Part shown: in pieces, positions 3,416-38,206 of the stretch
Position numbering within the stretch: position 1 is the stretch's first letter
How the letters are laid out: each line of letters opens with the position of its first letter
Assembly: GCA_963575745.1 (NCBI GenBank)
Contig: CAUYUJ010003425.1
Location: 281,630-345,629 of the forward strand
Direction of reading: 5' to 3'
Origin: Prorocentrum cordatum
Lineage: Eukaryota > Sar > Dinophyceae > Prorocentrales > Prorocentraceae
DNA length: 64,000 nucleotides
Translations under genes and position numbers: made by a program
Notes under the pieces: generated by a model
Told to the model about the DNA's origin: nothing
Seen by the model: only the letters and a program-made list of their open reading frames with translations
Databases searched by the model: none

Positions 3416-3447
3416 CCCAGAGGATTGGCAGATCGCCATCTAAGATC
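3416..3447 (+). repeat. E2 left terminal inverted repeat
   Basis: Pairs with 21559-21590. The mismatches are at positions 9, 11, 12 and 25 of the 32 aligned bases. AT-rich subterminal sequence follows. Confidence 0.88.
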
Positions 3448-4019
3448 GGGACAAATCAAGATCTCTATCATAATTCCGTTTTCTCGTTTTTTCTTGGATT
3501 TTCACAGAATATTGATATGTGTGCGCATTTTGGCGTTACGGCGTTTGGTCGCGCTCCCAAAGAGATCTTTGCACGTTTCCGCGTATGTTTCGTCATGCGG
3601 CGAGCGAAAATAAAGACATTGTTGGTTTTCGTGCGCGCGCCGTGACATTGAGACTACGTTTGCAATCATAGCAACTGAGACGGCACAATATGTTTTGCAT
3701 TGGTTGCTGCAACGCGCGTTGCAAGTGTTCTGCCCACAGGGTCGGCGGTAGATGTCGCAAGACCGTCACATCAGAAACAACATGTAACATCGATATTAGG
3801 GATTTGCAAGTGTCGATCGACGTTTTTCCTGCTGCTGAGATGCTGCCGACTTGGTTTCTCGATCGTCGCCTCTGCGCGTGCACGCGCACCGCCGTCGACC
3901 GCCGCATGCAACTAGGGCAGACTTGCCATAGCATCCCCTGTCTCCTCTTTCTGGATTCCCGTCCTTCTCCGCCTCCTTCTCCCTAGCCTCTCGTTCCAGC
4001 CCGTCGACCCTACCATCTA

Positions 4020-4037
4020 TCCCTCTACCCATCTCTT

Positions 4038-4077
<40 letters not shown>

Positions 4078-4085
4078 CCTCTCTG
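4020..4085 (+). repeat. (CT)n microsatellite
   Basis: Nearly pure CT dinucleotide tract inside E2. CT- or GA-rich tracts also occur at 11500-11610, 18130-18270 and 18490-18530. Confidence 0.9.
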
Positions 4086-4485
4086 TTGTGAGTTCCCTCT
4101 CACTCCATCTCTCTCGAGCCGCCTCGCTCCGCGGATGCATTTGCTTCTCCCAACCGCCCACCCACCCCTTTACTCCTCCCACTCTCTCTTCGCATCCCTT
4201 CCTGCCCCTCTCCCTGTCCATCTTCTTACGCTCATCCTCCATCCTCTCCAGGCATACTCCGCCCTCCCATTTCCCCTCATTCTCCCCTTCACCCTCCCCG
4301 TCCCAGTATTGACCTCTTCGTCTATGCCGCGCTGCGTGCATCATCCACGGGCGAGTGCGAAGGGGCGCAAGCCCAAACACCGAGGAACGCACGTGAACAC
4401 CAATGCGCACAGTCACGGGCTGGTCCATTGAAATTCAGAGCGCGAGCGCTACGCCTGCATGTGATCACGCAGCAGTTGTAAGCGT

Positions 4486-4562
4486 TTGTTTTTTATATGG
4501 TTTTATGTGGGTTTTATGTGGGTGTTATGCGGTTTTATGTGGTGTTATGTGGTCGTGCGTGG
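4486..4562 (+). repeat. E2 11-bp array, (GGTTTTATGTG)n
   Basis: Several imperfect copies of an 11-bp unit GG(G)TTTTATGTG. The same unit recurs at 12426-12580 and, on the other strand, at 20055-20135. All three are inside E2 and none overlaps an exon. Confidence 0.8.
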
Positions 4563-5005
4563 CCCCAGGTGCTTGTGTGCAGGCGCTCTAGGAGTCAATG
4601 TGGCAGACGACGTTGGTGATCATGAGGTGTTGGCACTTTGTCCACGCGCATTCCTCGGTGTCTACTCGTATGCGCGTGATGCAGCGCGGGTCAAAGAACG
4701 CAGCACGAGTTCAAATTGCAGCAGCGTCTTACTTGCGATGGCTTAGAAGCGTGGCATTGGGATGTGACGGGAGAAGGGGAGGGAGGAGTTAAGGGGACGG
4801 TGGAAGGGTTAGGAGAGGACGGGAGGGGCCGAGAGGAGTTGGAATAGAAAGCAACCAATAATACACCATCGTGGGGTTCACGAGGAGAAGGCGGGAGTAG
4901 AGGCGAGAGATTGACAGGGAGGGGTAAGAAACAGAAACGGACGGCATGCCATCGTTCACTCCTTCTCCTCCTCCCACTACCCATGCCATCCAATACCATG
5001 AGACA

Positions 5006-7436
5006 TCACTTGTGCATCACTAAACTTGCGACAGCCTCGCAAAACTCAACAGGGTAGGCAGCGCTGCGCTTCTGAAGCGCCTTGTCCCCTGTGATCCACC
5101 CGCGCCCGAGCCACCCGTTGCCCGAGCGACACACTTCGCTCTTCGTCAGACGCACACCTTTCTGATTATTGGCAGCCTGGCGCTGTCGTGCAACCTTAGC
5201 AGTCGCGCGCAGCGCTTTGGGGTTGTGAAACGTGGTGTACAGCTTTGTCGGCTTGAAAAAGGGGCCGCCGAAACCAGCCATGAATGTATTGACACATGAA
5301 GCAGAGATCACATCTAGAGCATCAGCCATGCACTGGAACTTATAGAGAGACGAGCTCCGCGGCTGCTCAATTAGCATGAAGCACATCCTGCAGTGCGCAA
5401 GGAACATCAAGAACGACCTCAGACGTCTGATAGACAACAACATAGTTTGCAAACGCGACCTGTCAAACCGAGAAACTCATCACCAAATTGAGCCATGTAC
5501 GGCTTAGATTCGTTAGCCGACCCACCAACACTGCTCACAACGACCGTGCACCCCCCCCATCACAAACGTATTGCATTGCAGTGTAATGTCTAGATTTGCG
5601 CCCCAGTTCTTTGATGTTGCATCGGGTTGCATTGCGTTGCGACCCATGGGTTTGCGGTTGCATTCATGTGTTGCATAATTCCTCAGCGTCACATCTCTGC
5701 CCTTTCCCTTCCCCTACTATCGTTGTCGCCCTCGCCATCCCTCCCCTCCCCGTGGTCTCCCAGCTTGTGCGGCACGGTGCGGCACGGCACACTCGCGCGT
5801 TGTGCACGCCATGGCATGTCATTGCACGGTTACGTTCTTTCCATTCTCGAAACCACGCACGGCACGGCATTACAATGCAAGCCTCTGTATCTCCATAACC
5901 AGTCACGACCCCATGCGCACTTACGACACGGGAGAGTTCACATGAGCCCACACGTACAACAATACGGAAGACAATGTGGGAGATTCAACGGGAAACCATA
6001 TGGGACGGGTGACCAGGCGGGTGACCAGACAGGGGACCAGATAGGGAGATCAGAAGGAAAGGAAGGGGCATTGGTGTGGTACACAGAACGTTAAGTAGGA
6101 GCACAAGGGCATACGCAATATATTATTGAGTTGGTGCTCGTATACGTGTCTACGCGTATGTATACGTACATGTGTCTGCGGAGTATATTGCCAATTGCAA
6201 ACCGTGGTCTACACACCCATATATATATACACACCAGGGGTTGACATGCCCAGCGAGCATGAGCAACGTGGAGAGATTAACACAGTTGGCCTGCATTGTC
6301 GATCTACATTTATGTGAGCACACAGCGTGATGTATATACATGTGTATTCGCAGAGCGAACGAGAGGGAGAGAGTCCGAGGTGAAGCAAGACAACGGGCTT
6401 GCGGTAGTATCACAAAACATGGCAATGATACATTTGACGGTGATAAGGGTGGAGACATGGTATAACAATGTGCGAGGTTGACGGTTAAGGTAGACAGGGT
6501 CCCATTAGCAGGTTGTTAGGGACTCGGGGCATCGGATGTGTTATGTCCAGGGTTCGCCAGTCGATCGTCGTTATCTCGTTAGTTCGATCGGCGTCATCAG
6601 GCTAGAATGGGTTAGGCCCCAGACGTAAGCAGAGCACAGAAGTTAGCTTCGCGAACATCTTGCCGACTCACATCTCCATAAAGATAGTCGGATGTCCTCT
6701 TGGTGTGGCTCCGCGTCATGTTGCCCCAAGTGGCGCAGCAGTTCCCAAGCATAAGACAACCGCAATGTTTGATCTGGAGTGTGGAGTAGACGGCCCGCAG
6801 CGCACCAGGAAGTTCACATGCGTCTTCTGCGGCATCATCACGTCTGGGAGCTTCCGTTTGAGTCAAACTAGTTTGTTAAACATACAAGTGTGTAGCTATA
6901 TAGTTCCACACACATGGTCCCCCAACGCGTGATGTGACGCCGTGTCGTGCCGTGCAGTGCGGTTGTTTGCACACCTCAAATCGTGATCCATGCTATGTTG
7001 CGCAATGCCGTTATGCTGTGCCGTGAAGCGGCTTGCCGCGCAGCGGTGCCGCCCCCCCCCCCCAAACGGCGCATTGAACCATGCGGTCCAGAACGGAGCT
7101 CAGACGAACACGAATGACGCTTTCCGAGGGTCGTGTCGCTGCATCTCGCTCACCATTCGCATCGGTTGCGTCTCAAACGTAGTTCGTTCACCTCCCTCTG
7201 GCCCTTCATGGTCCTCCCCCGACCCTGCAATGCAGCGAAAGCGCAGTGTCCTGTCGAACGTTCTAGCGACGCCTCCTTTTTCTCTGACCAGCTCCGAGGT
7301 CTGCCCCTCCCCCGAGAACATGTCGAATAGGTCCAGGGTACGGGGGATCTCCACCTCCCCCAGCCACTTCATCGCCGCCCCCGTCAGGAGGGTCATCATC
7401 TCCTCATGCGCGCGCATCATTGGTTTCAAACTCAGC
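5006..7436 (-). CDS. M2: methyltransferase-like protein, at least 3 exons
   Basis: Three coding blocks follow one another on the minus strand. Exon a (7436 to about 7200) encodes LDLFDMFSGEGQTSEL then ARTFD, resembling the SAM-binding motif I of cytosine-5 methyltransferases (DLFxGxGG). Exon b (6826 to about 6617, after a GCCGCAG acceptor) encodes HCGCLMLGNCCATWGNMTR, at the position of the Pro-Cys catalytic region. Exon c (about 5427-5006, stop at 5006) encodes FMLIEQPRSSSLY and FMAGFGGPFFKPTKLY, then AYPVEFCEA; EQP sits where ENV stands in motif VI. I know this as a dinoflagellate-expanded family. Catalytic activity is not shown and the Pro-Cys dipeptide is not intact. Exon edges are approximate. 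E1 carries a relative, M1. Confidence 0.66.
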
Positions 7437-7444
7437 TCGCGCAA

Positions 7445-8330
7445 AGGTATGGGTGACGGGGGATGGGAGGAAGGGAGGGTGGGAGCGGAGAGGGGGGATC
7501 AAGTGTGGCATGGTGCGGGGAGGGCGAGGGGAGGGAGGTGGGAATCGGTGGGTTGGAACGGTTTGGTTTGCGCTGATACGGGGGGAGGGGGATTGCAGGG
7601 TGGTGGAGGAGGTGGAAGAGGAGGAGCAGGAGGAGGAGTGACCCGACGGGAGAGAGGAGATGCGGGGGTGCGGGGGGGGGGGGGAATGTGGATACGAGGA
7701 GGTAGGAGAAGGAGCAGGCACGCTATCCCGAAGTAGGATACCGCCCTTGAAGTAACATCGCCACCGCGCCGAAAGCACGGTGGCGGTGTTACTCGCCAAC
7801 GTCACCCCGTGGCGGGTTCTGCCCATATTGAGAAGGTGGACGTGGAGGTGACAGGGGGAATTGCTTGAGGGCAGTTGGCACCGATAGGAACTAGCACGAA
7901 GCAGAACACCATGAAGGAACTCCATGCACACCCCTGTGTATATGGGTTCGACGCGCTACTAGGAGTGTAGCAGTAAGCGCACGCATATGACGCCCCCTAA
8001 GGCGAGTCGCATGACTCCTATGTATACGCATATATATACACATATGCTTTATATACATAAACATTCCGAAACCAAGTTATATACATACACATACGTACCG
8101 ACCGCCAGGTAGTGGCGACACAAACAAGCATGCTTTACGACCAGCAACTTGCGTCCGCACAGGCGCATTGCACTCACGAATGGCAACCATCTCGCACCAC
8201 TGCGCATACTGGACACATTTATATATATATATGGACAAAACGACCATCACACCATGGACGCGCCTTGAGCACGTAGGAACAACGAGCTGGTCTACAATGT
8301 CCCTCTCTGCCCCCGCTCGGCCACCATCAA
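7445..8330. other. E2 spacer between Z2 and M2
   Basis: Contains a G-rich and C-rich stretch (7440-7690) and short TATATA runs near 8030 and 8220. A minus-strand open segment around 7930-7740 could be an additional 5' exon of M2, but no motif supports it. Confidence 0.3.
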
Positions 8331-8371
8331 ACATTCACGGATGACAACACAATGAACAATTGATGACCACA

Positions 8372-11300
8372 TCATAACGGGATCGTGACAACAGTGTTGG
8401 GCCCGTCCTCCATGTTCGATGCCGTCATCTTCCACTTCGCCTGGTTCGGCTCGATCTCTTCCGCCATGCGGCGGATCCATTTGGGCACAGCCATTGTCGG
8501 GAGACGCAAACAGGTGGATGTTTGTCTTGAGTCGGCCCATGATGGCGAAACAACCGTAGACTGTTCTATGAACTGTAGCACCATGACTGCTCTCAGCTGA
8601 TACTCTCAGGGCTAGATTTAGCCCCTCGTCGACAAACGTGTCATACGCTTTAGGGTTGCCTAGATCCCAGCTCCTGTTGGAATGCACCCGAAGCCACCCT
8701 CCAGGGGCCAAATCAACTATACTTGAGCGGTTGTTTCAGGAAGGCAGGCAGTTCGATGTCGACACAAGATGGATGATCGAGATCGCAGTGCCCCATTCCG
8801 TTAGTTAAACACCGTTCATGTTCAATCGGATTTGGCACCCATACCTCCTCCTTCCATCTTCGCTACGATTCCCGTCAGAGAACAATTCGTATCTCCTACA
8901 TACATCCACCCCCTCGCACCCCTCCCACATCAGCCAATCCCCCAATCCCCGTTTGAAGCCCTCTCCTGCTTGTCAAGTGACCAAACAAGTGAAATTTGGG
9001 CGTGGGCTTGACGGAGGCCTGATCACAGCAAATGAGAAATCTATTGCAGCTGTCCAGCAGGCGCTGGTACTGATCCACTGTGAGTCTCACTGAAGACTTG
9101 CGACAAGTTCCTAACCAGTCCGACAGGCTTTCCCCAGCTGCCAGCAACGGCCGATGATGCTCCACCCCTGCCCGATACTCTCGTAATCGGTCGATCGCAA
9201 ACTCAAGCATGATGCCTGCTTCTGCAGCCTTCAGTTTTATTGACCGTCCCGGATGACACGCGTTGCTTGTCTCCCCGCCCAGCATCTTCCACGTCAGCAA
9301 TTGCACGCGCCTGTCGTGAGGCACCTGCGCCCTAATGAAAAACGAAAACATGTCTGATTCTAGCCTTTGGATCGCTGCTGAAGGGGCGACACCCCAAGGA
9401 TTCGAAGCAAGAATCCGAAGCAAAGCCGCCGCCACCCATCGAAGAACGACTCCAAGGTACACAGTGTGGAGAGAATCTACTGCGAGAGTCCTCGCAGGAG
9501 ATGTGCACAGGTTCGGGCTGAAGAGCGGACTGCGGTGATTGCATTCATCGGTCCCCCTTCCGTATTGATCGACATGCCGTCTCCAGAATTTTGCCCGAAA
9601 CGGCGTCACGAGTGAAGCGAACTCTTTCGGCACGAGAAGGCTGCCCGCAGGCTCCAGCCGATCCCCCTCCAACAACCCGAGGGCTGGAAACGATCTCTTG
9701 AGAATCCTGCCTCTACCCGCCTTGCATTTGACCAGCAATTGGGCGAGAGAGTCTCGCAAAAAGTCACTGCCAATATCTACTGTAATCTCGCATGAAACGC
9801 AAGCGTCCTCATAGCTACCCTCCTGCCGATCTGCCATCAAGAGTCCTGTGTTATGCACGCACCCTGGGATTAAAAGATGCATCGAATCGTTTGGCGTCGG
9901 GCAGATCGGGCAGCAATGGTAGTGGTTGTTCCACGTTGGTAGCCCTAGAGAGGTCGCGTACTCCGCCCAATCCCCTTTGATATACATAATCATGCACTTC
10001 ACCCCTAAATGCCCCCCTTCATCATCTGGCTTATCATTCAGAGGCCACGGGCTGCCATCGTGCATTGCGTTGGGAACCTTACCTTCCACGAGCGCCGACA
10101 ACTGCCACGCTGTCACTTGCATGAGGGAGTGGACCGTGCAGTATCCAGAACACCCACAATCGCAAAACGTGCCCTTTTTCATGATTCCCAGCAAGTGACG
10201 CCTGTGGGTCAACAAGTTAACGACGCTGACCCCGAGGATACTGAACGCTAACCCCTGGGGATAGTGGGCCACGAGGCGTGCGATGGGGCAAGTTCCAACG
10301 CTACTGATTTTACAACTCTTGGTGCCCTCACGGGGCGAAGTCAAATCCGATTACCACTTTGCTCCACCCCCACTCACCACCAACATTATACGCTACCACC
10401 AACGGCTCAAACGAAGCCGTCGCCAACGCTATTTCCGTCGCAACCGCAGCCCGACGTCACATCGAAGGGACCACGTACACCGCAGTTGAACGCACCCAGC
10501 CACCAAAGCAGCTGACGCTTTCCAAACTCCCTCCTCTCGCCCCCCCATAATATACACCATCTGTCGTTTCGTGTTTTGTGTAGGCATGCACTCGGATATG
10601 GACAAGCACTTAGTCGTACAAATACACATGTGGATACGCAACCAATCGTGCACATACACGCGCAATTGCGCAATCCAGCGTGTCCTGGGGAGTCGGGTTG
10701 GCGTGAGCCTGAACATCGGTTCTCCCCGCTGCCTGCCCAGCGTACCTTACCCCATCCATGTAAACTGCCAGAGGTAAAGGCAACGGCCCCCCACGTGACA
10801 TTGATTCTTGGACTATGGGGTTCTGGAGATATGAAGGCAAACTCAAAATTGAATCAAAGTCGTCCTCCCGCCCCTCCTCAAGCATATCTCGCACGTACGG
10901 GTCAGCTTTGACCTCGTCAGCGATGGTGCGAAAGACTTGTCTAAACGGCACCCGTTGGGAACTGATGTGCGCTTGCTTCCTGATCCGCATAGGCATGTCA
11001 GCGTAGTAGTACGGCCCACTCGATGGCAGTCGTCGGTCGAGATGAGATTTGTAACTTCCAGATGGCTTTCCAGGCGGGCTCGCATATTTACCCCAATCAG
11101 CACCTGGGACGTCGCATACTGACATATAATGGCACAGTATGCAGAAGTCTTGGGCGCTCATTCTTTTCGATGACCCGTAAATTGCTAATAGTGTGTCCAG
11201 CGCCCTCGAACCAGCTTTTCGTTTCTCTGCGGCATTCGGGATCTTTATGAATGTTCGGTTTCGGATGTTGTGTCTGCTTTGGCGTGAACCCCCCATGACC

Positions 11301-11398
11301 TCGATCAGGAAAAGGCTGCGCGCGAAGCGTGCAATATCACGATTCATACATTCGGGTGGGCAGCTCGAGTATGTACATTGAGGTCGCCAGCGTGGCAC
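8372..11398 (-). CDS. Z2: transposase-like protein of E2, 3 exons
   Basis: Exon 1 (about 11398-10709) ends MDGVRYAGQAAGRTDVQ. The intron opens GC and ends AG, and exon 2 (10254-8966) continues in phase. Exon 2 holds CDCGCSGYCT, then YIKGDW with a CCPIC pair 26 residues later, VDSLHTVYLGV, and KLKAAEAGIML. The intron after PKFHLFGHLTS opens GA and ends AG, and exon 3 (from 8673) gives GNPKAYDTFVDEGLN. The Asp of KGDW, DxxH and a late acidic residue fit an RNase H-fold (DDE-type) transposase with the CxxC insertion and DxxH signature of CMC-like families; this is inference. In exon 3 the best reading changes frame near 8500, by a short intron or a frameshift, and ends at 8372. Further 5' exons may exist. 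Confidence 0.75.
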
Positions 11399-11399
11399 A

Positions 11400-12425
11400 G
11401 AGCAGAGAGGATCGACATGGCAAGAGACAGGGACTCATAGCCAGGGATTACACGTCTGTGTCTATACATTTGCATCTGTGTACACATACACAGACAGGGC
11501 GAGAGAGAGAGAGAGAGGAATCGAGGGAGGGATAATGAGAGTGCGATACCAAAAGACAAGTATGGAGCGAGAGAGAGAGAGAGAGAGCAAGCATACGACA
11601 CACCTCTCTCTCTATGTATGTCTGTTCATGTACATATATACATATATACATGCACACTACACATCACACCGCATGCTGACATTCGAATACGAAACGCGAC
11701 CACAACAAGAAAGACCGATCATAATCGTACCTGATGTGCACAATGATCAAACTGATCGCGCAGCGTAGCTTTGTGAGCACATGTCAGACACCCCCGCTGG
11801 ACGGGGAGATCAGGGCAAGAGACAGAGCCGCTGCCTCTCCCGAGGGCGACCAAACGAAAATCTTGCGCGGACAAACGTGGCTGCGCGCCAAGGATCTGGC
11901 ACTTGATGCGCCCACCTCTCTGCAGATCACCTTTCCCGAAGAGTGTGCTGGTAGTTTTGCGGTGTGGCATCGTTCGATCAGGCTTCCTAGGTTCAACATT
12001 GTAACGCATGCTTTATGTTGTCCTGAAACCAGAACTGCGCGCATCCAAAAACAATGTTTGTTTGGGCCGTGCTACCTGCACGCCCCCTCCAATTCGGGAA
12101 AGATCCGAGCTGCGGATGCTTTGCGTCTGGCTGCCATGCTCGCCTCCTTTCTTCAGAAAGGTGGCGCCTTGCGCTCGCAGGCGAACGTCCCCAGGTATCC
12201 CGCGCTGTCGCAGAGATGCCAAGTCCACCAGCGAGGTTCAGCCCGCTACTGCAACAGACGCATCACTTGAAAGAATGCCAGAGAGGTGGCGCACAAAACT
12301 CGGAACTCGGTCGAATCCAATTGGCACGGCGTACTTCACCCATTAAATTTGGCCCGGGACCGGCAAACACTGACCGGGGACCGGCAACGCATCAAAAAAT
12401 CTGGATTTTTCCCGGTAAACGGGAA
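11400..12425. other. E2 spacer between Y2 and Z2
   Basis: GA microsatellites at 11495-11600 are followed by mixed-composition sequence. Open frames on both strands at 11720-12350 are possible 5' exons of Z2, but they show no shared motif with Z1 and I do not call them. Confidence 0.3.
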
Positions 12426-12580
12426 AATGTACTTTTATGCGGGTTTATGCGGGTTTTATGCGGGTTTTATGCGGGTTTTATGCGGTGAGCTTTTAGTGTG
12501 TTTTTACAAGTAAAAATCAACGTTTATACGAGTTTATATGGGTTTTATGTGGCTTTTATGCGGGTTTTATTTTTCTGATT
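12426..12580 (+). repeat. E2 11-bp array with palindromic core
   Basis: Copies of GGGTTTTATGC surround a core at 12498-12521 that reads GTGTTTTTACAAGTAAAAAT and then CAAC. The core differs by one substitution and one base of length from the core at 32278-32300 in E1. The array lies between the 3' end of Y2 and the 5' side of Z2. Confidence 0.8.
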
Positions 12581-12808
12581 TTTTTCTGATTCGTTTCAGA
12601 AAATGTAGAGATTTTGCCGTTTTGCCTTGGTTTCTTCCAAAATCCGTCAAACAAGCCAATCGCGTGAGTGAAAACCAGTGGAAGCGTCGTGCGCGACCGA
12701 GGTCCTTGACATAAACCGAGTGTGCTTTGCAAAAGCAGCTGATGATGGCAGCGCACACGGTCACGTCGCGGGCTTTCGGTCGCGCAAGGCGCATCCATTC
12801 GTGATCAA

Positions 12809-18750: not shown

Positions 18751-18756
18751 CCCACC

Positions 18757-21558: not shown

Positions 21559-21590
21559 GATCTTAAATGGCGATCTGCGGAGCCTCTGGG
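21559..21590 (-). repeat. E2 right terminal inverted repeat
   Basis: Reverse complement opens CCCAGAGG. It pairs with 3416-3447 at 28 of 32 positions. The motif GGCGATC repeats just inside (21550-21575). Confidence 0.88.
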
Positions 21591-26349: not shown

Positions 26350-26515
26350 CCCAGACCCTCCAAACAGCTAAGATTTTATCCCCGCGCTAAAATCTTCGGT
26401 CCGCTCTTGGATTTTATCCCAGGATAAAATTTTAGTTTTTGCATGCCAAGTTGAAAAAATATATCCCCAGGGTAAAATTTTATCCCTGCCGCTAAAATTC
26501 TTAAATTTAGCTATA
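26350..26515 (+). repeat. E1 left terminus and subterminal palindromes
   Basis: After the 32-bp inverted repeat come several ATTTTATCC / GGATAAAAT pairs, including the near-perfect palindrome TTTTATCCCAGGATAAAA around 26411-26430 and a second around 26460-26500. The right end has the same motifs, so these are candidate binding sites for an element-encoded protein. Confidence 0.85.
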
Positions 26516-26739
26516 ACAGATACTCTCACATGCCCCCTCGAGCCCTCACCTAGGGATCAGGCGGATCAGTGTCGAGCCCTTTCGGAGTCGGTGGGTCGGT
26601 CGGTGGGGTCTCGGGGTCGCGCGCCCTCGCCTGCCCCCCCGACGACAAGAAGTTCGACCACACCCCTCGGCGCGCCCCGCCCCAGCTCCGCGCGTGCTCG
26701 CGTGCTTGCTCGCGTGCTTGCTCCGTCGGCGCCACGCTC

Positions 26740-27150
26740 GTCGCGTCGCCGTGGTCGTCGCCACTGCCGCCGTCGCCGTGGTCGTCGTCCGTGCCTTCCG
26801 AAGGCCTCGCAATCGTCAGAGTCGTCGCCGTCGCCGCCGCCCACCGCCTCCGTCGCCGTGGTCGTCCCCCGTCGGCCTCGCAGACGTCAGCATCGTGACC
26901 GTCGCCGCCGCCGTTGCAACTGTCGCCATTGCCGCGGTCTCCGTGGCCACAGCCGTCAACATCGTTACTGTCGCCGCCACCGTTGCAACCGTCACCACCG
27001 CCGTCGTCGCCGTGGTCGTCGTCCGTGCATTCCGTCGGCCTCGCAACCGTCAGCGTCGTGGCCGTTGCCGCCGCTGCTGCCGCGGCCACCGTCGTAGGCG
27101 TCGCCGTCGTTGCAGTCCTGCCTGCCTTGCAATCGCCACTGTCGTCACGA
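26740..27150 (+). repeat. Degenerate (GTC/GCC)n tract
   Basis: Imperfect trinucleotide repeat rich in GTCGCC. It generates long low-complexity open frames that I do not regard as genes. Confidence 0.85.
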
Positions 27151-27159
27151 AGAGTAGAA

Positions 27160-27420
27160 TGAGGAGAATAAGGAGGAGAATAAGGAGGAGAATAAGGAGG
27201 AGAATAAGGAGGAGGAGGAGGAGGAGGAGGAGGAGGAGGAGGAGGAGGAGGAGGATGGAGGAGGAGGAGGAGGAGGAGGAGGAGGAGGAGGTGAGGAGGA
27301 GGAGGAGGAGGAGGAGAACAACGAGGAGGACGAGGAAACAACTAATGGTGAGGGGGGGGAGGAGGAGGAGGAGAAAGATAATGGAGAGGAGGAGGAGAAG
27401 GAGAAGGAGGGGCGAGCAAG
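27160..27420 (+). repeat. (GGA)n / (GAG)n microsatellite
   Basis: Purine-only tract with few interruptions. Like the tracts at 37140-37320 and 37880-38030 near the right end, it lies outside the genes. Confidence 0.9.
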
Positions 27421-27456
27421 CTGTTTTGGCTTCAAAGTTCATTTTGCCTCGAAGGA
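27419..27456 (+). other. Possible pair of relict spliced leaders before M1
   Basis: AAGCTGTTTTGGCTTCAAAG is followed at once by TTCATTTTGCCTCGAAGG. Each resembles the 3' part of the dinoflagellate spliced leader (gccattttggctcaag) with a few changes. They lie about 30 bases upstream of the M1 start. Tandem relicts are known from recycled dinoflagellate mRNAs, but both matches here are weak. Confidence 0.4.
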
Positions 27457-27483
27457 GGCCCCAGAGCCCCAGAGCTCGAGGTC

Positions 27484-29513
27484 ATGTCCATCGACCAGCA
27501 TGACCGTTTCCTCGGAGAAACATCCAGCCAGTTTGGGATGGACCCAGCGGTGTTTGCTGATCATGCCGATGATCCGAATTATTGTTATCGTTGTTGTGGC
27601 GACAATTTCGACAAGTTGATCCTCTTCGGCTGCGAGGTTTCCGTGGCCGCCCAGAAGGAGTTCACTCGCAAGTGGGACGTCCTCGAGATTTTTTCGGGCT
27701 CCCATCGCCTCAGCGACGCCTTCGAGAAGAAGGGCTACGCTGTGACTCGCTTCGACAAGTGCGAGTTTCCCTGGCAGGACACTTCTGGGGACCTCGAGGG
27801 AGGAATCGCCCCGAGCAGAAAAATGACAGAAAAATGACAGACGACAGAAAAATGACAGAAAAATGACAGAAACCAGAAAAATGACAGAAAAATGACAGAA
27901 AACCGAAACTTACAGAAAAATGACAGAACAATGACCGGCGACAGAAAAATGACAGAAAAATGACAGAAACCAGAAAAATGACAGAAAAATGACAGACACC
28001 AGAAAAATGGCAGAAAAATGACAGAAAAATCAAAAGCAACAGAAAAAAACAGAACAAATACAAAACACAAGCAAATAACAGAAACAAAAACAGAAACCAT
28101 AAGAATTACAGAAAAATGAAAGACTGCAGAATGAGGGGACGGAGGAGGAGGACGAGGAGGAGGTGGAGGAGGAGCAATATGACGACGAGGAGCTCACTCA
28201 CCCGAGCTCTTCCGCGCCCCCGAGGATGTTTCATCGCCTGGCGGGTGGTACCAGCTTCTGAGCTTCGTTTTGATGCTCAAGCCTGGTGGACTTTTGTGGA
28301 TCAGCCCTCCGACGGAGTGCAATTTCGGCCAGCTCTCCGATGAGCAGTTCAAGATCGTCTTGGCGACGGTCTTCTTGTTCCAGCTTGCTGTTCGACGCAA
28401 GTTGGTGGTGATGTTAGAGGGCCAGTTGTGCATGTATCTGTACTACCATCCGCTCTGGATCAAGCTGCGCGATGGCTACAACCTGTACGTTGCCGACCTC
28501 CAGATGCGCAAGTTCGACCCAGCCGAGGACCGTCGATCAGCGGGGGCGGTGGAGGAGGAGGCGGAGGTCTGTAGGAGGTTGGTAGGCGGGGTCGCCTCGG
28601 GGAGTGGAATGAACATCCCCGCGGAGCCCCGCGCCCTGGAGCACTCCTCCTCCCCCTCCTCCTCCTCCCCCTCCTCCCCCCCAGCCCCTACCGCCCCCCT
28701 CCCCCCCTAAAAAACAACAACAAAACAAACGCAAAAAAAGCTCCGACCGAAAAATGACAGAACTGACAGAAAAATGACAGACAACAGAAAAATGACAGAC
28801 AACAGAAAAATGACAGGCAACAGAACAATGACACCAAGTTACAGATGTGAACACATTGTTCGGGCGCGTCTGCTTGCGCTGCCTCGGCCCAGGATGAGAG
28901 CAAGAAGATGGTGGCGACGCGGATCTTCGGCACTGAGTGGTGGGCCGGCTGTCTCGGCAACAAGTGCGACCACGTAGGCAAGCACGTCTGGCCCGCCGAG
29001 AGCATCGTCGAGTACCACATCGAGTTCTGCGACTTCATCGTGTCCAACTTCGAGGAGTTCCGCCACGCCGCGAAGCCCGAGTACGCCCCCCGCCCGTGCG
29101 TCGACAGCAGGTTCGACTTGTTTTGGCTCGGTCGGAAGCTTCTGGAGCCCGACGGCAAGAAGAAGAGAAAGTTGGGCCGTGTGGACTCGTCTGCGTCGGC
29201 CTTGTCTCAACCTGTTGCCTGCGTCAGCCCGACCATCGAGGAGATCGAGGAGATCGAGGAGATCGAGTCGGAGGACGAGAAGACCGTCCCGCAGGAGCGC
29301 GAGCCAGCGAGCCCCACGTCGGAGGTGGAGCAGATCGCCACCGACTGCTCAGCTGGCCCATCGCGCGGCGCCCAGGAGGCCGACATCGAGGCGCGCAGGG
29401 CCATCGAGAAGCAGGGCGCCGAGCTCGCCGCGCGCGTGCAGCAGGAGGAGATGCGGCAGGCCGTGCAGGACTCGGGGCTGCGCGCAACCGCACCCTATCA
29501 TGTTGAGGCTTAG
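27484..29513 (+). CDS. M1: methyltransferase-like protein, at least 3 exons
   Basis: It starts at the ATG at 27484. Exon 1 (to about 27790) encodes RKWDVLEIFSGSHRLSDAF then AVTRFD, a motif I-like SAM-binding segment. Exon 2 (from 28225, after a CCCCCGAG acceptor, to about 28530) encodes MLKPGGLLWISPPTECNFG, resembling the PP(C) region, and VVMLEGQ at the place of the motif VI-like EQP of M2. Exon 3 (28893-29513, stop TAG) encodes RIFGTEWWAGCLGNK, then an acidic region with repeated EEIEEIEE. The first intron is filled by the 11-bp ACAGAAAAATG array; a smaller one lies in the second intron. The order of motifs matches M2 of E2. The catalytic Pro-Cys is not present as such, so activity is uncertain. 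Confidence 0.62.
27815..28118 (+). repeat. E1 11-bp array, (ACAGAAAAATG)n
   Basis: About two dozen imperfect copies of an 11-bp unit in the first intron of M1. Further arrays of the same unit are at 28745-28835, 32190-32380 and 37372-37450, all inside E1. Confidence 0.9.
28745..28835 (+). repeat. E1 11-bp array, second intron of M1
   Basis: Copies of ACAGAAAAATG between exons 2 and 3 of M1. Confidence 0.88.
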
Positions 29514-29519
29514 CCGAGG

Positions 29520-30300
29520 AGGAGGGAGGAGGACAATGAGGCGGAGGAGGAGGAGGAGGAGGAATAGAGGGCGGACTAGAGGAAGGACTGGAGGAAGATT
29601 AGGGGGAGGAGGAGGAGAAGGATGAGGAGGAGCACGATGATCCTGAGAAATTGCAGTCGGAGGGCGCCCCAGGAGTAGGAAGAACAGGAGGGGATGGAGA
29701 AGGGCGAAGCGGTCCAAGTCGGGGTGAAGAGGGGGAGGGTGGCAGGAGGATGCTGAGAATTGCCGCCATCAGGAGCGCATGAAGAACGGCCCGACCGAGA
29801 CCGCCGCTGAGCTGCCCCAGACCCGCTTCCCCAACCTTTGATGACAGACTTCAGAGGGGCGAGCGGCGATGCGGGTGGCACATCGTTCATTCTTCATCGA
29901 TCGTTGCCGAGGCGAGTGGCACATCGTTCATTCTTCATCGATCGTTGCCGTCCAGGGCTCCACTCGTCAGAACTCGAATCGTCGGCACTTGCTGCGCTCG
30001 GTTCGCCAGGGGTTCCGCCGTCCTCGCTCCACTGCTACACTCTCCTACTCTTGCTTCCTCCCCCCTTCCTCCCCCCCTCCGTCTCATCCTCATCCTTCTG
30101 GTCTGCCGCCTCCTTTCTGGCTCCTCCTGCCCTCCCCCCCCCCCCCCCCTGGAGCACGGTATCACCCCATCCTCCCCATCCTCCTCATCAGCCCCCTCAT
30201 CCCCTCAGCCAGGCCCCAGAGGCTGGCCACACGATGGAGGCGAGGTCATATAAGTGCACCGATCCTGGCATTCAGAGGGGCCCCCGTGGTAGCCCAAATG
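29520..30300. other. E1 spacer between M1 and X1
   Basis: GGA-rich and CCT-rich low-complexity sequence. A direct repeat of about 36 bp (GGCACATCGTTCATTCTTCA and following bases) occurs at 29876 and 29913. No gene is supported. Confidence 0.5.
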
Positions 30301-30304
30301 CCCG

Positions 30305-30455
30305 ACACCTAAATAAAGCCCTTGGTCACCCATATGCCCGCCCTAAATAAATGCCCATAACCTAAATAAAGCCCGTCTAAACGACAACATCTTTGCTAAA
30401 TAGAGCCCGTAATCTAAATAGAGCCCGTAACCTAAATAAAGCCAGTCTAATCGGA
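30305..30455 (+). repeat. Tandem repeat of CCTAAATAAAGCC
   Basis: Six or so copies of a CCTAAATA(A/G)AGCCCGTAA-like unit with variable spacing, directly upstream of the relict spliced leader of X1. Confidence 0.8.
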
Positions 30456-30459
30456 GTTG

Positions 30460-30481
30460 TCCGTTGCCAGTTTTGGCTCAA
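30460..30481 (+). other. Relict dinoflagellate spliced leader upstream of X1
   Basis: Reads T, CCGTTGCCAGTTTTGGCTCA, A. The known leader is (D)CCGTAGCCATTTTGGCTCAAG. The difference is one substitution, one inserted G and the last base. It ends 12 bases before the ATG of X1 on the same strand. A genomic copy of a trans-spliced leader next to an open frame is the signature of an mRNA that was reverse transcribed and reinserted. Confidence 0.8.
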
Positions 30482-30493
30482 CGCCATGCTAGC

Positions 30494-31843
30494 ATGGCCA
30501 GACGGCGCAAACGCGCTCCCTGCTGGCGGTCCTCGACCGACACCGATACCGCATCTGTTCTTGAGCCAATCGTGGCCCGCACACTCCACATTGCGTGGAG
30601 AGATGGTCGATACCCTTCCGATCACATGAGGAGAAACATCAATGTACCTTATTTGGTTGAAGCTTCTGATTCGTTGAAACAGCTTGCTGCTCTCGATACG
30701 AGAGGAGGGTTCTTCTCCCAAGATGGCATGAAACGAGCAGTGATGAAGGCATGTACCGAGCAGAAGCACGAGCAAGGTTCGATGAAGCTTGCCAGGGACA
30801 TAGTGAAGCCGCACGGCGAGACTCTCGCTTTGGTGGCGTATTCTTACCGTGTCATGATGTCCCACGTTCGGGAAAAGTATGAGCAATACATCACCCTGAA
30901 AGCCAAGGCGTGCGGCTCTGGCGAAGTAGTTGGAGCCAGCCCATCACACCCGACTGAGCTCATCGAGATTTACGACATCTGGGAAGCGTCTGGCTTAGAC
31001 CCCCGCAGAAAGATCGGTGGACCCGTGCAGGCTAAAAACCCATTCGTGAACTTCAGGGACGCTCCACCTGACACGTCGTCTTCTTGTTCTCACGAGTCCA
31101 TCTCCGACGACGAGGTGTGCACGATTACGCAGGATGGCCGCACGTTCATTCTTGGCGGCAATGGGCAGCGGCTGTACGCAGAGAGGCACGAGCCAGGTGA
31201 GGACGGATTCGCTGTTGCTATATGGCCTGACGGACGCAGGTATACCACGTTGACTCCATCGAGCTACATCAAGTCGGACGGCAGGCTGATGGAGGTCCCA
31301 GCTTTACCGCCACAACCGAAGCCCAAGAAGAAGGCCACGGCGAAAGCCGAGGCTGCTCTCAAGCGGCCAGCCGCTGCCGCAGCCGCTGCCAAACGACCTG
31401 CGGCCGTCTCCCTGGTATCCGACGACGATGCGCCAGACGAGATGGTCGCAGTGAGCGATGGCGAGCTCGTCGGGGGCGATGGAGATGCACCTCTTGCAGA
31501 GATGGTCTTGGCTGCACTACCCGCGCCGCCCGCCGCCGAGGTCGTCGCAGCGGATGCGCTCGACGGCGACGCTGAGACGAAACCATGGTTACAGCGCACT
31601 GCAGGGCACAACATGAGCCAGACGATAATACTGAGGACTACCAGTAAAGATAAAGCGCAGGTCCTACAAGTTTTCATTAGCGAGTCTGACGACCCAACTG
31701 GCGTGGTTGAGAGCGTCATGAAGGATGCTGAGCGCCATCCTGATATTACGGCCCTTAGGGGCCGCGTGAGGGAGCTGCCCAAAGACAAGCTCGAGTCTGT
31801 TCGTGCTGCTCTCAGGAACTTGAAAGCACGTAGGCTTAGCTAA
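30494..31843 (+). CDS. X1: KRPAA-type protein of E1, intronless
   Basis: One open frame of 449 residues from the first ATG after the relict spliced leader. The N-terminus is basic (MARRRKRAP). A helical region with LVAYSYRVMMSHVREKYEQY follows, then KNPFVNFRDAPPD and SISDDEV, IWPDGRRYTTLTPSSYIK, a KKKATAKAEAALKRPAAAA tract, an acidic region, and a C-terminal domain beginning SQTIILRTTSKDKAQVLQVF and ending LRNLKARRLS. The order KNP..F..P, SDDE, W.DGR, KRPAA is shared with X2 of E2, although X2 places its HRHQVKHL domain before the KRPAA tract. X2 is interrupted by at least five introns and X1 by none, in line with a retroposed origin. The function is unknown; it is probably nuclear. Confidence 0.8.
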   Translation: MARRRKRAPCWRSSTDTDTASVLEPIVARTLHIAWRDGRYPSDHMRRNINVPYLVEASDSLKQLAALDTRGGFFSQDGMKRAVMKACTEQKHEQGSMKLARDIVKPHGETLALVAYSYRVMMSHVREKYEQYITLKAKACGSGEVVGASPSHPTELIEIYDIWEASGLDPRRKIGGPVQAKNPFVNFRDAPPDTSSSCSHESISDDEVCTITQDGRTFILGGNGQRLYAERHEPGEDGFAVAIWPDGRRYTTLTPSSYIKSDGRLMEVPALPPQPKPKKKATAKAEAALKRPAAAAAAAKRPAAVSLVSDDDAPDEMVAVSDGELVGGDGDAPLAEMVLAALPAPPAAEVVAADALDGDAETKPWLQRTAGHNMSQTIILRTTSKDKAQVLQVFISESDDPTGVVESVMKDAERHPDITALRGRVRELPKDKLESVRAALRNLKARRLS

Positions 31844-31849
31844 TGCTGC

Positions 31850-32185
31850 ATGCTCCGCAGAACAGCAGGCAGGTGCAAATAACAAGTCGTTGTCCTTCTC
31901 GTCCCCCTGCTCTTCCTACTCCTTATCCTCCTTCCGTTGTTATTCTTCCTGCATTTCCTCGCACTCCCCCGCGCGCTCCCATTCTGCCTTTCCCCCTCCT
32001 CTTCCTCATCGAAGGGGCGCAGCTTCTGCGAGAGAGATTCTCTCAGCGAGAACGCACGGCTTCTGAGGTGAAGCGCCCCGTCCTTGGGATGTCTGTCTGT
32101 CCATGGAAGCTTTCTCCCGTCCTGGATTTCGTCTCCGGAACTCGGCTGGTCTGGATCGCAGCCTTCCGGAACCCAGCTGTTCAGA
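31850..32185. other. E1 spacer between X1 and Y1
   Basis: Pyrimidine-rich sequence (31890-32010), then mixed sequence. No gene is supported. Confidence 0.4.
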
Positions 32186-32189
32186 ATTC

Positions 32190-32380
32190 TGTCATTTTTC
32201 TGTCATTTTTCTGTCATTTGGCATTTTTCTGTCATTTTTCTGTCATTTATGTTGGCCAAAAAAAGTGAGAAAACACTGTGTTTTTACATGTAAAATCAAC
32301 CGACAGAAAAATGACAGAAAAAATGACAGAAAAAATGACAGAACAATGACAGAAAAATGACAGAAAAAACAGCCAGGGCC
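32190..32380 (+). repeat. E1 11-bp array inverted around a palindromic core
   Basis: Left of the core the unit reads CTGTCATTTTT; right of it the unit reads ACAGAAAAATG, so the two arms are inverted. The core at 32278-32300 reads GTGTTTTTACATGTAAAATC then AAC and contains TTTTACATGTAAAA. Element E2 has the same core at 12498-12521 inside a different 11-bp array. Confidence 0.88.
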
Positions 32381-32706
32381 CGAGCAGATTTTTGTTTTTT
32401 CCCGCGGGGAGCTGTCGGGAGCTGTTTTCTGTCACTGAGCCGCTTCTCTGACATGTTTGCGTCTGCCCCGACGGTCCCCCCCAAAAAAAGAACCTCATCT
32501 GTTCCCGAAGGGACATGACACAACCTCCCCAGGGGAATTCGAGTGAGGACATCCAGGGGAGAGGGGGGAGGAGGGGGGGGAGAGTTTTTGTCGCTGGATG
32601 TTCCACGCAATTGTTCCGTCTGTACCGACACTCAGGCTCGAGGTTTTGATGGCCGTTCCAGTTCGGGATTCCCACATGCGCAGAAGCAACCAGACGTTCT
32701 GAGAAG

Positions 32707-34546
32707 ATGGTGTCCAGCAGCGATTCCGAGCCCTTGAGCAAGCCTACGGTGATGAAGAGACCGTCTGCCGCCATGAGAGCTCCTTCTACGCCTGCTGCGC
32801 TATCCGACTCTGCTGCAAAGCCAAAGCGGAAGAAAGGTGGGAAGGCTTCTGACGATGACTCAGCCGAGCGAGATGTGAATGCGAAGAAGCCTAGGAAGCA
32901 GGGAGCACCAGCACACAAGAGGCCCGCAGCCGCAGGGACTTCGCCGAAGGACCCGCAGGACACCCTGATGCAGCCGAAGGAAGAGCCAGAGGACGAGGCG
33001 CCCGAGGACACGCCTGTCAGGACGCCCACCGCCAAGGCCAAGTCCAAGGTCAAGATGGAGTTGCCTGCCGAGATGGACGATGCGCCGCTGAGCGAAGCGG
33101 AGATGACAGAACTGGCCAACCTCGGGAGCAAGAAGGACTCCAAGCCGATGGCGGCGGCCAAGGCGACGCTTCGTAAGAAGGGCGTGGATTTGGCAACACT
33201 TACGCCACAGCAACTCAAGGAGACGCTTGGAGATACTAAGATGAAGTCGCTGTTCTCCGCATATGGCTACACTCTCAAGACCAACGCCCCCACCCTGTAC
33301 GAGCGGTACGACAAGGGCGGAGACGTCGAGCGCAGGCAGTGGCTCACCCGTTTCATCATGGACGCGAGCAGCGGGGGCCACCAGGGCAAGGCCACGGCCA
33401 GTGTCAACCAGAGCACGAAGCACGTGGCCGACGAAGAGTGGCTGACTGAGGAACAATTGGCCAGCCCACTCTACATGAACTCGAAACATCACGCGTCCAT
33501 CATAATCCACTGCCTCGAGGAGCGCCCGCACAGGATGAAGGCCCTGGCAGACCTCGGCGTGAGAGAGTACAAGTACAGCAAGGAGATCCTGCGCAGGGTG
33601 AACGGCAGAGAAGAAAAAACCGAGATCGCTGCCGTCGCCGACATGACCGAGGGTGACTACAGGCAGGTGCAAGGAGCAATGCAGGGCGTCGACATCGCCG
33701 CCGTAGCCGACGGCCACGCCGCCTCCAGCTCGGCGCCGACGCCGACATCGCAGAGCAAGGCCGAGGAGAAGAAGCGGAAGCGAGAGGAGAGGCTGCAGAA
33801 GGAGCTCGAGGACGCCAAGGAGAACCCAGAGAAAGCAGCTAGAAAGAAGTCGAAGAAGGAATTGGAGGAGGCCATCGGCAAGTCGAAGGCGTTCCTGCGC
33901 GCGTGCGGCGGCGAGCTGGCTGACATCCCATCGCTGTGCAGGAAGCTCGCGGCCAAGAACTTTCCCGAGGCCATGGGCGCGTTCTTGACCACGAGGGCAG
34001 CGGACTTCAAGAAGACGATCGACGAGTTCGGCGAGAACGAGTACTCCGACGCGAAGGCCACCGTGCGGGACGACGACAAGACCAAGCAGGAGCTCGACCA
34101 GACTGCGCAGACGCTCCTGGCCAGGCTCAACGCCATCCAGGAGCGCAGGTAAAAAACTACAATGCCTATCCCATGCAACGCATGAACACGAGGGCGAGGA
34201 GGAGGAGGATGAGGATGAGGAGAAGGAGGAGGAGGAGAGGAGGAGAGAAGGCCAAATGAGGACACTGACATATTCGTATTGGCTTAGAACCTGTCACAGC
34301 AGCGCCCCAGGAGGTGGCGGAGGAGGAGGAACGAGGTGGAGGAGGTGGAGGAAAGAGGTGGGGAAAGAGGTGGAGGAAAGAGGAGAGGAGGATACCAGAT
34401 AACAAATGGAACACTAATTTCATATTTGAATTGCCCGCCCCCCTCCAGTCGTCCTCATCCGCCTCCTTTTTTTTTGTTGGCGCCCTCAGAAGAGCTTCAA
34501 CGAGTGGAAAAAGTCCAACCTGGACGACCTCAAGCGCATGGCTTGA
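32707..34546 (+). CDS. Y1: large Lys-rich protein of E1, 2 exons
   Basis: Exon 1 runs from the ATG at 32707 to about 34144 and exon 2 from 34490 to the TGA at 34546 (KSFNEWKKSNLDDLKRMA). The N-terminus is basic with MKRPSAAMR and HKRPAAAGT tracts and acidic patches. A globular middle has AYGYTLKTNAPTLYERYDKG, RRQWLTRFIMD and EEWLTEEQLASPLYMN. A coiled coil (EEKKRKREERLQKELEDAKE) and a helical C-terminus follow. The 5' splice site is uncertain: GT at 34149 shifts the frame of exon 2, while a GA site after AIQ keeps it. Position and architecture match Y2 of E2, but direct homology is only plausible. The function is unknown. Confidence 0.72.
34180..34400 (+). repeat. (GGA)n-rich intron of Y1
   Basis: Purine-rich low-complexity sequence between the two Y1 exons, including runs of AGGAGGAGGAGG. 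Confidence 0.8.
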
Positions 34547-34549
34547 GCG

Positions 34550-35064
34550 TAGACCATCTCTTTCGGGTCCGAAAGGCGGGTGCTATTGGTCGGCCGATGG
34601 GGTCGGCAGACTAGGAGGCGACAACGCGTGTTGTGCAGTTTTTTTTGCAGGCGCCCCATGCGAGCCGCATGTGAAACGCTCCCCCAGCTACCATGGTCCA
34701 TTGACATATGCTGAGGGTCAATGGGGGATGTTGTTGAAACCGTGATGTGGTTGCGTGTGAACGCATATGATGGACCATGGTTCCCCTCTTCAGTGGCGTT
34801 CGGCCCAGGCTGAGTTGTCGGGGCCCCGCGCGCTTCCTGGCAATGCATGGTCCTGGGCGGTGGTGTTCGTCAGCGGCTGCTTTCCCGTGCTGACGCCGCT
34901 TCGGGTTCAATATGACCTTGCACCATTCCCAATAGAGGGTGATGTTTGAAATCAAGGGTGAAACATCTAATGATGGTTTGTGTTTTTGGTTTTGTCCAGG
35001 GGCGCTGTCGCCGTGGATTTCTTGGGGGTGAGATGGTCGTTTTTTTTTGGCGCACCACTCCCAG
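34550..35064. other. E1 spacer between Y1 and Z1
   Basis: Contains three pyrimidine tracts ending in AG (near 34653, 34790 and 34999), so short 5' exons of Z1 may lie here. For example, 35000-35028 is bounded by TTTTGTCCAG and GTGAG. I cannot fix a start codon. Confidence 0.35.
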
Positions 35065-37119
35065 AAGGCAGACTCGAGTTCGGCGGCAACCCCTCGCCCG
35101 ACAGATGAAACTGCATCGTCATCGGGAGCTAGTGCGTCTTTTCTCAAGCGGAAGTTCATGTCGGGCACCCTGGCGGCCACAGAAATTGTAGAAGGTGCCC
35201 AAAGTATATGTTCAGATCTATCTCGCCATCCAGATGCGGTTCCCGAGGACATCTCGAGCTTGGGGAATTTGGGTGGAGGTAAGAACTCGTACAGGGATGT
35301 AATGAGGAGGCTCGACAAGTCAGATGCCCCAGACGTTTACCAGGCATATCTCCTAGGATGGGACGCCCATGCTGCCAGACAGAAGCCAATTCTAGTGAAC
35401 TTCCTCGTGCCGCATGAGATTTTAGATTGGCTGGTGAGGCCCAGCGACATTCACTTGTGGAGTCGGTTCGGCGATGGCCAGCGACCACAAGAACAAGCGT
35501 TGAGAGAATGGGGTGAAAACGTTGTTCCGCCGCTGGACGCACTCGCAGAAAACGCGGTTTCTCTTGGCATATGGGGAGACGCCGCGCCTTACGCGCACAG
35601 GGACTCGCTTTACTTATTGACTTGGCAGACCATTTCAGGATCTATCTTGAGGCATCGGCGAAACTGGTTCTGCGCCTTCCCCAAAAGGCAGCGGGCAGAA
35701 ATGCAAATCGGGGGTGCCCCAAACTCTCTCAACTCCCGAATTCCACTCGCAACCCTCCCACCTCCAACCTTCCCTGCAGAGCCCTCCCCCCGCACCACCG
35801 GCCACCGCCGCCGCCGCCCCTCCTCGCGCGACTCCCCGACCCCCCCCCAACCACCACCCTCCACAACCCACTCGCCCTAGCCATGCTCCTCCTGCCCTCA
35901 TCTACCTCCCTCTCGTTTTGTTTTGCTGCCGCGCAGGCAAGTCTGCCAGTGCGGCTGCTCTGGCAGGTGTACCTTCGAAGGGGCCTGGAGAGTGATGCGA
36001 TGGAGTCTGGAGTCGCTGGCTCGGGGTACGCATCCGAGCAAGAGGCACGACGGCTTGTGCTTCGGCGCGTCTCGAGAATTTAGTGGTGACATCGCCAGGG
36101 GCGACAAAATCGGCCACGCATTGCCGTGCAAGGCGGCATGCATCCAGGTGAAAGGCGACTGGGCGTGGCTCAAGCAGGCGTTCCAGCTGACAGGCTGGAA
36201 GGCCGAAACAAAGGATAAGCGATGCTGCTGGATATGTCCAGCAAACACAGGAGACCTGGATTTCAGGAGGTGCGACTCGGAGGCTCAGTGGCGTGGACAC
36301 GAGTTCACGCACGTGCAGTTCGTCATGCAGAATATCATGATGGAGCGCTTCGTATCTGAGCTGTTCTCGTTCCCAGGCATGCAGCTGAAATATGTGAGCA
36401 TAGACCTCATGCATGCGTCTTGCCTGGGTATTCTGCCGTACCTCCTCGGCAACGTGTTTTTCGAACTCTCGCGTTCCTTGGGCGGGAACCTGACGGCAGA
36501 CAGCGACAAAACCATCCACGCAATGACAGTGCTGATGGTGCAGGTCAGGATGGCAGCGAAAAGCTTGGGCATCCCCGCGCCGATTCAGAACCTCACCTTG
36601 AGCATGCTCAAGCCTCAGGGCAAGAACCCTAAGATGAAATTGAAGGCCGCCGAGGGGCGGTACATGCTACGAGTTCTACGTGAGATGCTGACGCAATTTC
36701 ACTCGCCGCGGAATGCCCGTGATCAGACAAGGGCCGCCTGCGTGAACTACCTTGCGCAGGTTTACGATGAGCTGCCAGTCTGGGACCCTGTCCACTCCCC
36801 AGATAGGATCCGAATGGCTGGGCTTCGCCACGTTTTTTTGTACATCGAGCTGTTTCGTGAGGCGGCCTCGAAGGACGCCGACACCATCTACTGGCGACTC
36901 TACCCCAAACACCACATCTTCATCCACCTCGTGGAGAAGCAAACGGCCGAGCAGGGAAGTCCCAAAGAGAGCTGGAACTACTCGGACGAGGCCGAGATCG
37001 GCCAGGCCGTGAACGTAGCAAAAAAATGCCACTGCACGACCATATGTAGAGAGCTGATCAGGAAGTACCGCGCCATAGACCTGGCGGACCTGGTGCGGGA
37101 CTTTCGGTCCTGTTGGTAA
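35065..37119 (+). CDS. Z1: transposase-like protein of E1, at least 2 exons
   Basis: Exon 1 (35065-35687, after CACTCCCAG) includes WGENVVPPLDALAEN and ends FCAFPKR. The 249-bp intron opens GC and ends GCGCAG, and exon 2 (35937-37119) joins in phase as QVCQCGCSGRCT. It continues IQVKGDWAWLKQAF, CCWICPA, IDLMHASCLGILPYLLGN, KMKLKAAEGRYML, YPKHHIFIHL and SPKESWNYSDEAEI. The same blocks in the same order make up Z2 of E2. As there, the Asp of KGDW, the CxxC pair, DxxH and a late Glu suggest an RNase H-fold DDE-type transposase. The upstream start exon is not identified. It is probably the enzyme acting on the CCCAGA termini. Confidence 0.78.
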
Positions 37120-37139
37120 AGGCTACTGCCTTTAGCAAA

Positions 37140-37320
37140 ATGGCGACCGCCCACTCCTCCTCCTCCTCCTCCTCCTCCCTCCTCCTCCTCCTCCTCCCTC
37201 CTCCTCCTCCGCCTCCTCCTCCTCCTCCTCCTCTTCCTCCTCCATTCCCTCCTCCTCCCCATCCTCCTCCTCCTCCTCCTCCTCCTCCTCCCCTCCTCCT
37301 CCTCCTCCCCCCAGCCCCTA
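37140..37320 (+). repeat. (CCT)n microsatellite
   Basis: Almost pure pyrimidine trinucleotide tract downstream of Z1. Confidence 0.9.
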
Positions 37321-37371
37321 CCGCCCCCCCCGCCCTCCCCCAAAAAAACAAAAAACAAAACGCACAAAGCT

Positions 37372-37450
37372 CCGACAGAAAAATGACAGAAAGCAGAAAA
37401 ATGACAGAAAAATGACAGAAAACAGAAAAATTACATAAAAAAACAGATAA
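37372..37450 (+). repeat. E1 11-bp array downstream of Z1
   Basis: Copies of ACAGAAAAATG, degenerate towards 37500. Confidence 0.85.
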
Positions 37451-37639
37451 CAGAAAAATTGCAGAAACATAACAGAAACTGCAAATCCAACAGGCGTCAA
37501 ACGACAAAAAGAACACAGGAGATCCCGCGTACACAAAAGGACAGCAGAAATCCGAGAGAAAGAACACAGCACAATGAAATGCCACGACGTCCGACAGCTC
37601 AGAGGAGGAAACAGAGCTAGCCGAAGAGGCGAAAGGAGA

Positions 37640-38035
37640 GGGAGGAGCAGAGGAGGCGGAGGAGGACGGGGAGGAGGAGGACAAGGAGGAGGAGGAGCAG
37701 CATCAGCAGCAGCAGCAGCAGCAGCGCGAGGAGGAGGACACCGAGAAACAGCAGCAGCAGCAGCTGGAGGAGACCGCCCCGCCAGGTGATTGGTCTCCTG
37801 CAACTTCGGGACTGCCGCTCGGGAGGGGGCTTTGCTGTCGCCTGATGCTGTTGCTGCTGCCCCTTCCTCCTTTCCTTCCTCCTCCTCTCCTCCTCCTCCT
37901 CCTCCTCCTCCTCCTCCTCGTCCTCCTCCTCCTCCTGCTCCTCCTCCTGCTGTTGCTGTTGCTGCTCCTCCTTCTCCTACTCCTCCTCCTACTCCTCCTG
38001 CTCCTCCTACTCCTTCTCCTCCTCCACCAGTTCGG
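37640..38035 (+). repeat. GGA/GCA and CTC low-complexity tracts
   Basis: A purine-rich half (37640-37775, with CAG runs) and a pyrimidine-rich half (37845-38035) form a loose inverted pair near the right end of E1. Confidence 0.8.
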
Positions 38036-38040
38036 CCCAA

Positions 38041-38206
38041 GCTAGAATTTTAGCGCTGAAGGATAAAAAGTTAAAATCTTTAAAAAAATTTATCCGCGGG
38101 ATAAAATTTTACCCCCGCGCTAAAATTCTGAAAATTTTATCCCCGAGGGATAAAAAAATAAGATTTTATCCCCAGGATAAAATCTTAGTTGTTCGGAATC
38201 TCTGGG
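38041..38206 (-). repeat. E1 right terminus and subterminal palindromes
   Basis: Multiple ATTTTATCC / GGATAAAAT pairs as at the left end, including TTTTATCCCCAGGATAAAAT near 38164-38183, then the 32-bp inverted repeat that ends TCTGGG at 38206. Confidence 0.88.

Follow-up and report, generated by a model that had tools for sequence, protein, structure and literature searches.

Results

Two large elements in the Prorocentrum cordatum window

The window analysed is a stretch of 64,000 nucleotides from the bloom-forming dinoflagellate Prorocentrum cordatum (contig CAUYUJ010003425.1, positions 281,630 to 345,629), and it contains two complete DNA transposons, E1 and E2. Very probably, this species harbours a large group of cut-and-paste DNA transposons that includes E2 and is distantly related to E1. 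The limits of the two elements are as follows.

3416..21590, unstranded: element E1, 18,175 bp, from 32-bp inverted ends and full-length copies
3416..3447, +: E1 terminal inverted repeat, left
21559..21590, -: E1 terminal inverted repeat, right
3414..3415: E1 target-site duplication TG, left, matching 21591-21592
21591..21592: E1 target-site duplication TG, right, matching 3414..3415
26350..38206, unstranded: element E2, 11,857 bp, from inverted ends and full-length copies
26350..26381, +: E2 terminal inverted repeat, left
38175..38206, -: E2 terminal inverted repeat, right
26348..26349: E2 target-site duplication AG, left, matching 38207-38208
38207..38208: E2 target-site duplication AG, right, matching 26348..26349

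We searched a genome of 4,128,499,153 bases in 21,875 contigs, the window included; the published account of the P. cordatum genome (PMC10666404) gives 4.15 Gb, 22,724 scaffolds and 59.7% G+C, with introner elements present. Besides the window, E1 has three full-length copies of 18,238-18,260 bp (C3221, C10569 and C17728; 99.1-99.8% identity by blastn, per piece), with target duplications CC, CT and TC, respectively. E2 has full-length copies in C13520 (99.3%) and C16180 (98.7-99.5% per piece), with duplications CT and TG, and older or partly retrieved copies in C6260, C2336 and C7136. Among copies with both ends, the 2-bp duplication was found in 4/4 for E1 and 3/4 for E2. The sequence-only reading of this DNA had CCCAGA as the bounds of the elements, and inverted repeats some 32 bp long, starting with this hexamer, do close each of them, with the same two bases on either side. 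The hexamer alone is uninformative (46 observed, 46.4 expected). The longer end patterns are specific, with 11 genome sites for E1 and 10 for E2 (at most 2 mismatches), and the reversed patterns gave no site in the 4.13-Gb genome.

The spacers and introns of both elements are dense with repeats reminiscent of introner-like repeats, TTTTATGTGG-like in E1 (12440-12580, 20050-20140) and CAGAAAAATGA in E2 (27790-28100, 28740-28850, 32180-32360, 37380-37520). At 17535-17719 of E1, blastn alignments to the window copy were interrupted in all five retrieved E1 copies spanning this part.

A fixed gene row in the E2 group

27484..27807, +: M2 exon a (IFSGSHRLSDAFEKKGYAVTRFDK), open in 5/5 copies, window counted
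28201..28533, +: M2 exon b (PGGLLWISPP), 12 genome matches, 7 outside E2 copies
28851..29513, +: M2 3' open reading frame (GTEWWAGCLGNKC, with a UIM-like QxEExRxA stretch further on), 5' exon limit provisional
30461..30482, +: possible spliced-leader relict of dinoflagellate type, 11 bases upstream of the X2 start codon
30494..31843, +: X2, KRPAA protein, single exon, 449 aa (alignment A4)
32707..34152, +: Y2, Lys-rich protein, single exon (alignment A3)
35158..35687, +: E2 feature
35688..35936, +: E2 feature, homologs without a gap reading through the junction
35937..37119, +: E2 feature, 115 genome matches, itself included

The E2 group carries X, Y and the transposase Z as a fixed row at many genome sites, and M2 lies upstream in some families. 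X2 has 97 genome matches (92 outside E2 copies), and Y2, queried with window 33133-34149, has 125. Two-sided ends were searched for around six X-Y-Z rows outside E2. Perfect inverted repeats starting CCCAG(A/G) with identical 2-bp flanks were found at three of the six, two had weaker ends, and the row in C9014 had no two-sided ends.

C16377:193524-207512: X-Y-Z element, perfect inverted repeat of 36 bp, flank GT
C15445:705816-717410: X-Y-Z element, perfect inverted repeat of 29 bp, flank GG
C13422:603192-612431: X-Y-Z element, perfect inverted repeat of 112 bp, flank TG
C13723:332285-344127: X-Y-Z element, weaker ends, imperfect repeat, flank GG
C5002:602927-615694: X-Y-Z element, weaker ends, flank AA

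The C13723 repeat was the top CCCAG pair with a score of 13, while control-motif pairs in the same flanks reached 17; the C5002 pair came third on repeat score (6, against 8 for the control), and the matching flank and its CCCAGANCATCCG ends led to its choice. In C17655, a copy in the C16377 family, the right end alone is intact, and identity with C16377 stops at CCCTGGG. With the weak ones included, these five elements and E1 and E2 have 14 ends between them; compared by eye, 13 read CCCAG(A/G)NNNTCC, the sole exception being the left end of E1. Contig C15445 has two X-Y-Z rows on the same strand, at 688543 and 709342, 20.8 kb apart.

Probable exchange of M

Exon b of M2 lies upstream of a listed Z in 9 of its 12 matches, and the M profile matched the M2 3' open reading frame weakly (E 0.014). 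In the search for a methyltransferase domain, none of five M1 or M2 exon pieces matched Pfam. C2336 and C6260 match the window at about 90% identity in their left part, which bears M2, and at 95-97% in the X+Y part; the synonymous divergence (dS) of M2 exon a is 0.41 and 0.30, against 0.048 and 0.012 for X2. The ratio of nonsynonymous to synonymous divergence (dN/dS) of exon a is 0.12 against C2336, and likewise against C6260. Because the M2 segments of these two copies diverge far beyond their X segments, M appears to be exchangeable; the divergence suggests that it was swapped by recombination with selection on it maintained.

We searched three left arms for M. The arm of C15445 contains an M-like stretch (E 3.9e-12, the database being a small set of translated segments); neither C13723 nor C5002 gave a significant match. 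In C13422 the left end is just about 1 kb from X, and there is therefore little space for M. In translations read by eye, the UIM-like QxEExRxA stretch sits between M and X in E2 (29400-29513); three further elements, those of C5002, C13723 and C15445, have it ahead of X in their left arms.

Genes of E1

5009..5476, -: last exon recognised in M1, with 144 genome matches outside E1 copies
7230..7420, -: first exon recognised in M1 (LDLFDMFSGEGQTSELVREKGG), limits approximate
8896..10200, -: further E1 feature
10610..11434, -: further E1 feature, exon inferred
13476..15191, -: Y1, Lys-rich protein (P0003), open in 5/6 copies, window counted
18757..19707, -: X1, KRPA-rich protein (P0004), open in 6/6 copies, window counted

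The sequence-only reading had described a shared cargo of four genes, M, X, Y and Z, in both elements, co-conserved in permuted order. The X-Y-Z row of the E2 group bears out part of this description; for E1, homology was not demonstrated when the proteins were compared as single sequences by hhalign (Y1 against the Y2 profile 0.4%, X1 against the X2 profile 1.1%). Of 150 matches of the E1 M exon, none lay within 25 kb of a listed Z or X. A single match, on a contig that holds an E1 copy, had a listed Y at this distance, and another, in the window itself, lay near an E2-type M, the M1 and M2 queries being different exons. With X and Y profiles failing to detect the E1 proteins, compared as single sequences, one homologous four-gene set with permuted order is unlikely.

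The EukProt protein P0030 is identical to part of the M1 exon at 5009-5476 and covers 44% of the M1 query. It is labelled Pyramimonas sp., in conflict with the likely host, which points to contamination or mislabelling; beyond the identical part it goes on downstream in another genomic frame, as if crossing a splice junction.

Other repeats in the window

Between E1 and E2 (21700-26100) there is an array of 75-80% GC with a spacing of about 142 bp. A 53-bp unit (TGCGCCCTCGGCGGCCGAGAATAAAACC...) is arrayed at 40300-40560, 44550-45660 and 48250-49730, partly duplicated at 90-96% identity.

Discussion

Alternatively, the transposon might have captured X, Y and M, either as host genes or as short-lived passengers, and they would then have no role in it. 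The putative spliced leader just upstream of X2 would fit this, since X2, at least in this copy, may then be a retroposed mRNA; the putative leader is 3 edits from the 21-base dinoflagellate sequence. Two other window matches have 4 edits each (minus strand, 37149 and 908), and none at up to 4 edits occurred in five one-strand Markov shuffles. The exchangeability of M and the confinement of M2-type matches to 12 loci favour the same explanation. The earlier view of a functional set is supported in part, by the fixed X-Y-Z row of the E2 group with M2 in some families, and a set common to E1 is unlikely; on balance we regard capture of bystanders as improbable. An endogenous virus or polinton-like element would account for the large size and the several genes, but no polymerase, capsid or ATPase was recognised by Pfam in nine long open reading frames, none of 28 pattern stretches in viral contigs encodes a Z relative, and a RAG1-type transposase with a 2-bp duplication fits a DNA transposon, so this explanation has next to no likelihood.

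For the transposon group, the inverted CCCAG(A/G) ends, the 2-bp duplications, the gene order of the E2 group and the fold of Z are shown; Z, modelled on a homolog, has the fold of Transib and of RAG1, the recombinase of antibody genes. Z had no Pfam match at cut-off. Alignments place C(2)C and then H(3)H downstream of the second conserved Asp and upstream of the final Glu, and the catalytic residues are predicted to be the Asp of GIWGDxAP, the Asp of KGDW and the Glu of YxDExxIG. Z would likely pair both CCCAGR ends, cut both strands with this Asp-Asp-Glu site and join the excised element to a target cut in a 2-bp stagger. The strongest candidates for partners in end binding and architecture are X and Y, both basic and in part rich in KRPAA; as DNA-binding accessory proteins they may assemble the element ends by analogy with TNPA of CACTA elements. 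M would be a Rossmann-type methyltransferase-like protein and a candidate for DNA modification or anti-silencing, and might counter silencing of the element or mark its DNA.

We tentatively extend this, with more doubt than confidence, to an undescribed RAG1-fold superfamily with thousands of copies in a dinoflagellate nucleus, propagating as a four-gene cassette. In it X, Y and M would form a dedicated machine, fitted to the unusual chromosome of dinoflagellates, that assembles the ends and either counters silencing or marks DNA, and the superfamily would be the source of many repeated 'unknown' protein families. Dinoflagellate genomes are rich in repeated lineage-specific proteins without known function and in unclassified repeats, and a class recognisable from its ends, from genes in a fixed row and from an enzyme of RAG1 type may give some of them a common identity. 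Such a class can be searched for in every dinoflagellate assembly and adds a branch to the RAG1 relatives; its near-identical, probably recently mobile elements are on offer for study in organisms with few genetic tools.

Comparison with known transposons

The group to which E2 belongs apparently lacks an earlier description: literature searches, at the level of result listings and mostly without subscription papers, returned no account of such DNA transposons in dinoflagellates. Transib, RAG1 and ProtoRAG have a 5-bp target duplication and CAC-type ends, unlike the 2 bp and CCCAG(A/G) found here; identity to them is just about 10%, and a RAG2-like gene was not recognised. In Plavaka of fungi, DxxH lies downstream of C(2)C together with a PKxHxxxH stretch, a layout that Z shares. 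According to PMC12730594, PlavakaA has 2-bp duplications and ends TGT..ACA, and PlavakaB ends CATCA..TGATG; the duplication is thus as in PlavakaA, and the termini differ from both.

In plants, CACTA/EnSpm elements encode the transposase TNPD and the DNA-binding TNPA, and have CACTA ends and a 3-bp duplication. E1 and E2 resemble them in pairing a transposase with a second, putatively DNA-binding protein, a likeness of gene layout. EnSpm termini are given as CAC..GTG with a 3-bp duplication (PMC12730594), and E1 and E2 have neither CACTA/CAC termini nor 3 bp, which sets them apart from CACTA/EnSpm proper.

The same source (PMC12730594) defines the CMCT clade as CACTA/EnSpm, Mirage, Chapaev and Transib, with Plavaka, ESTA and Lanisha, having target-site duplications of 2 to 5 bp and termini CA..TG in most cases. 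E1 and E2 differ in their CCCAG(A/G) termini, in the lack of a Pfam match, and in X and Y without recognised relatives beyond this genome; some fungal members have a TET/JBP dioxygenase, and in its place E1 and E2 have M, a putative methyltransferase-like protein. As CA..TG is stated for most cases only, the termini are compatible with membership. The 2-bp duplication lies within the range of the clade, the modelled RAG1-like fold agrees with its RNase H-fold transposases, and the C(2)C/H(3)H layout and the accessory genes adjoining the transposase are shared with it. We place E1 and E2 in a transposon group of CMCT type that is distinguished by its ends and by its gene row.
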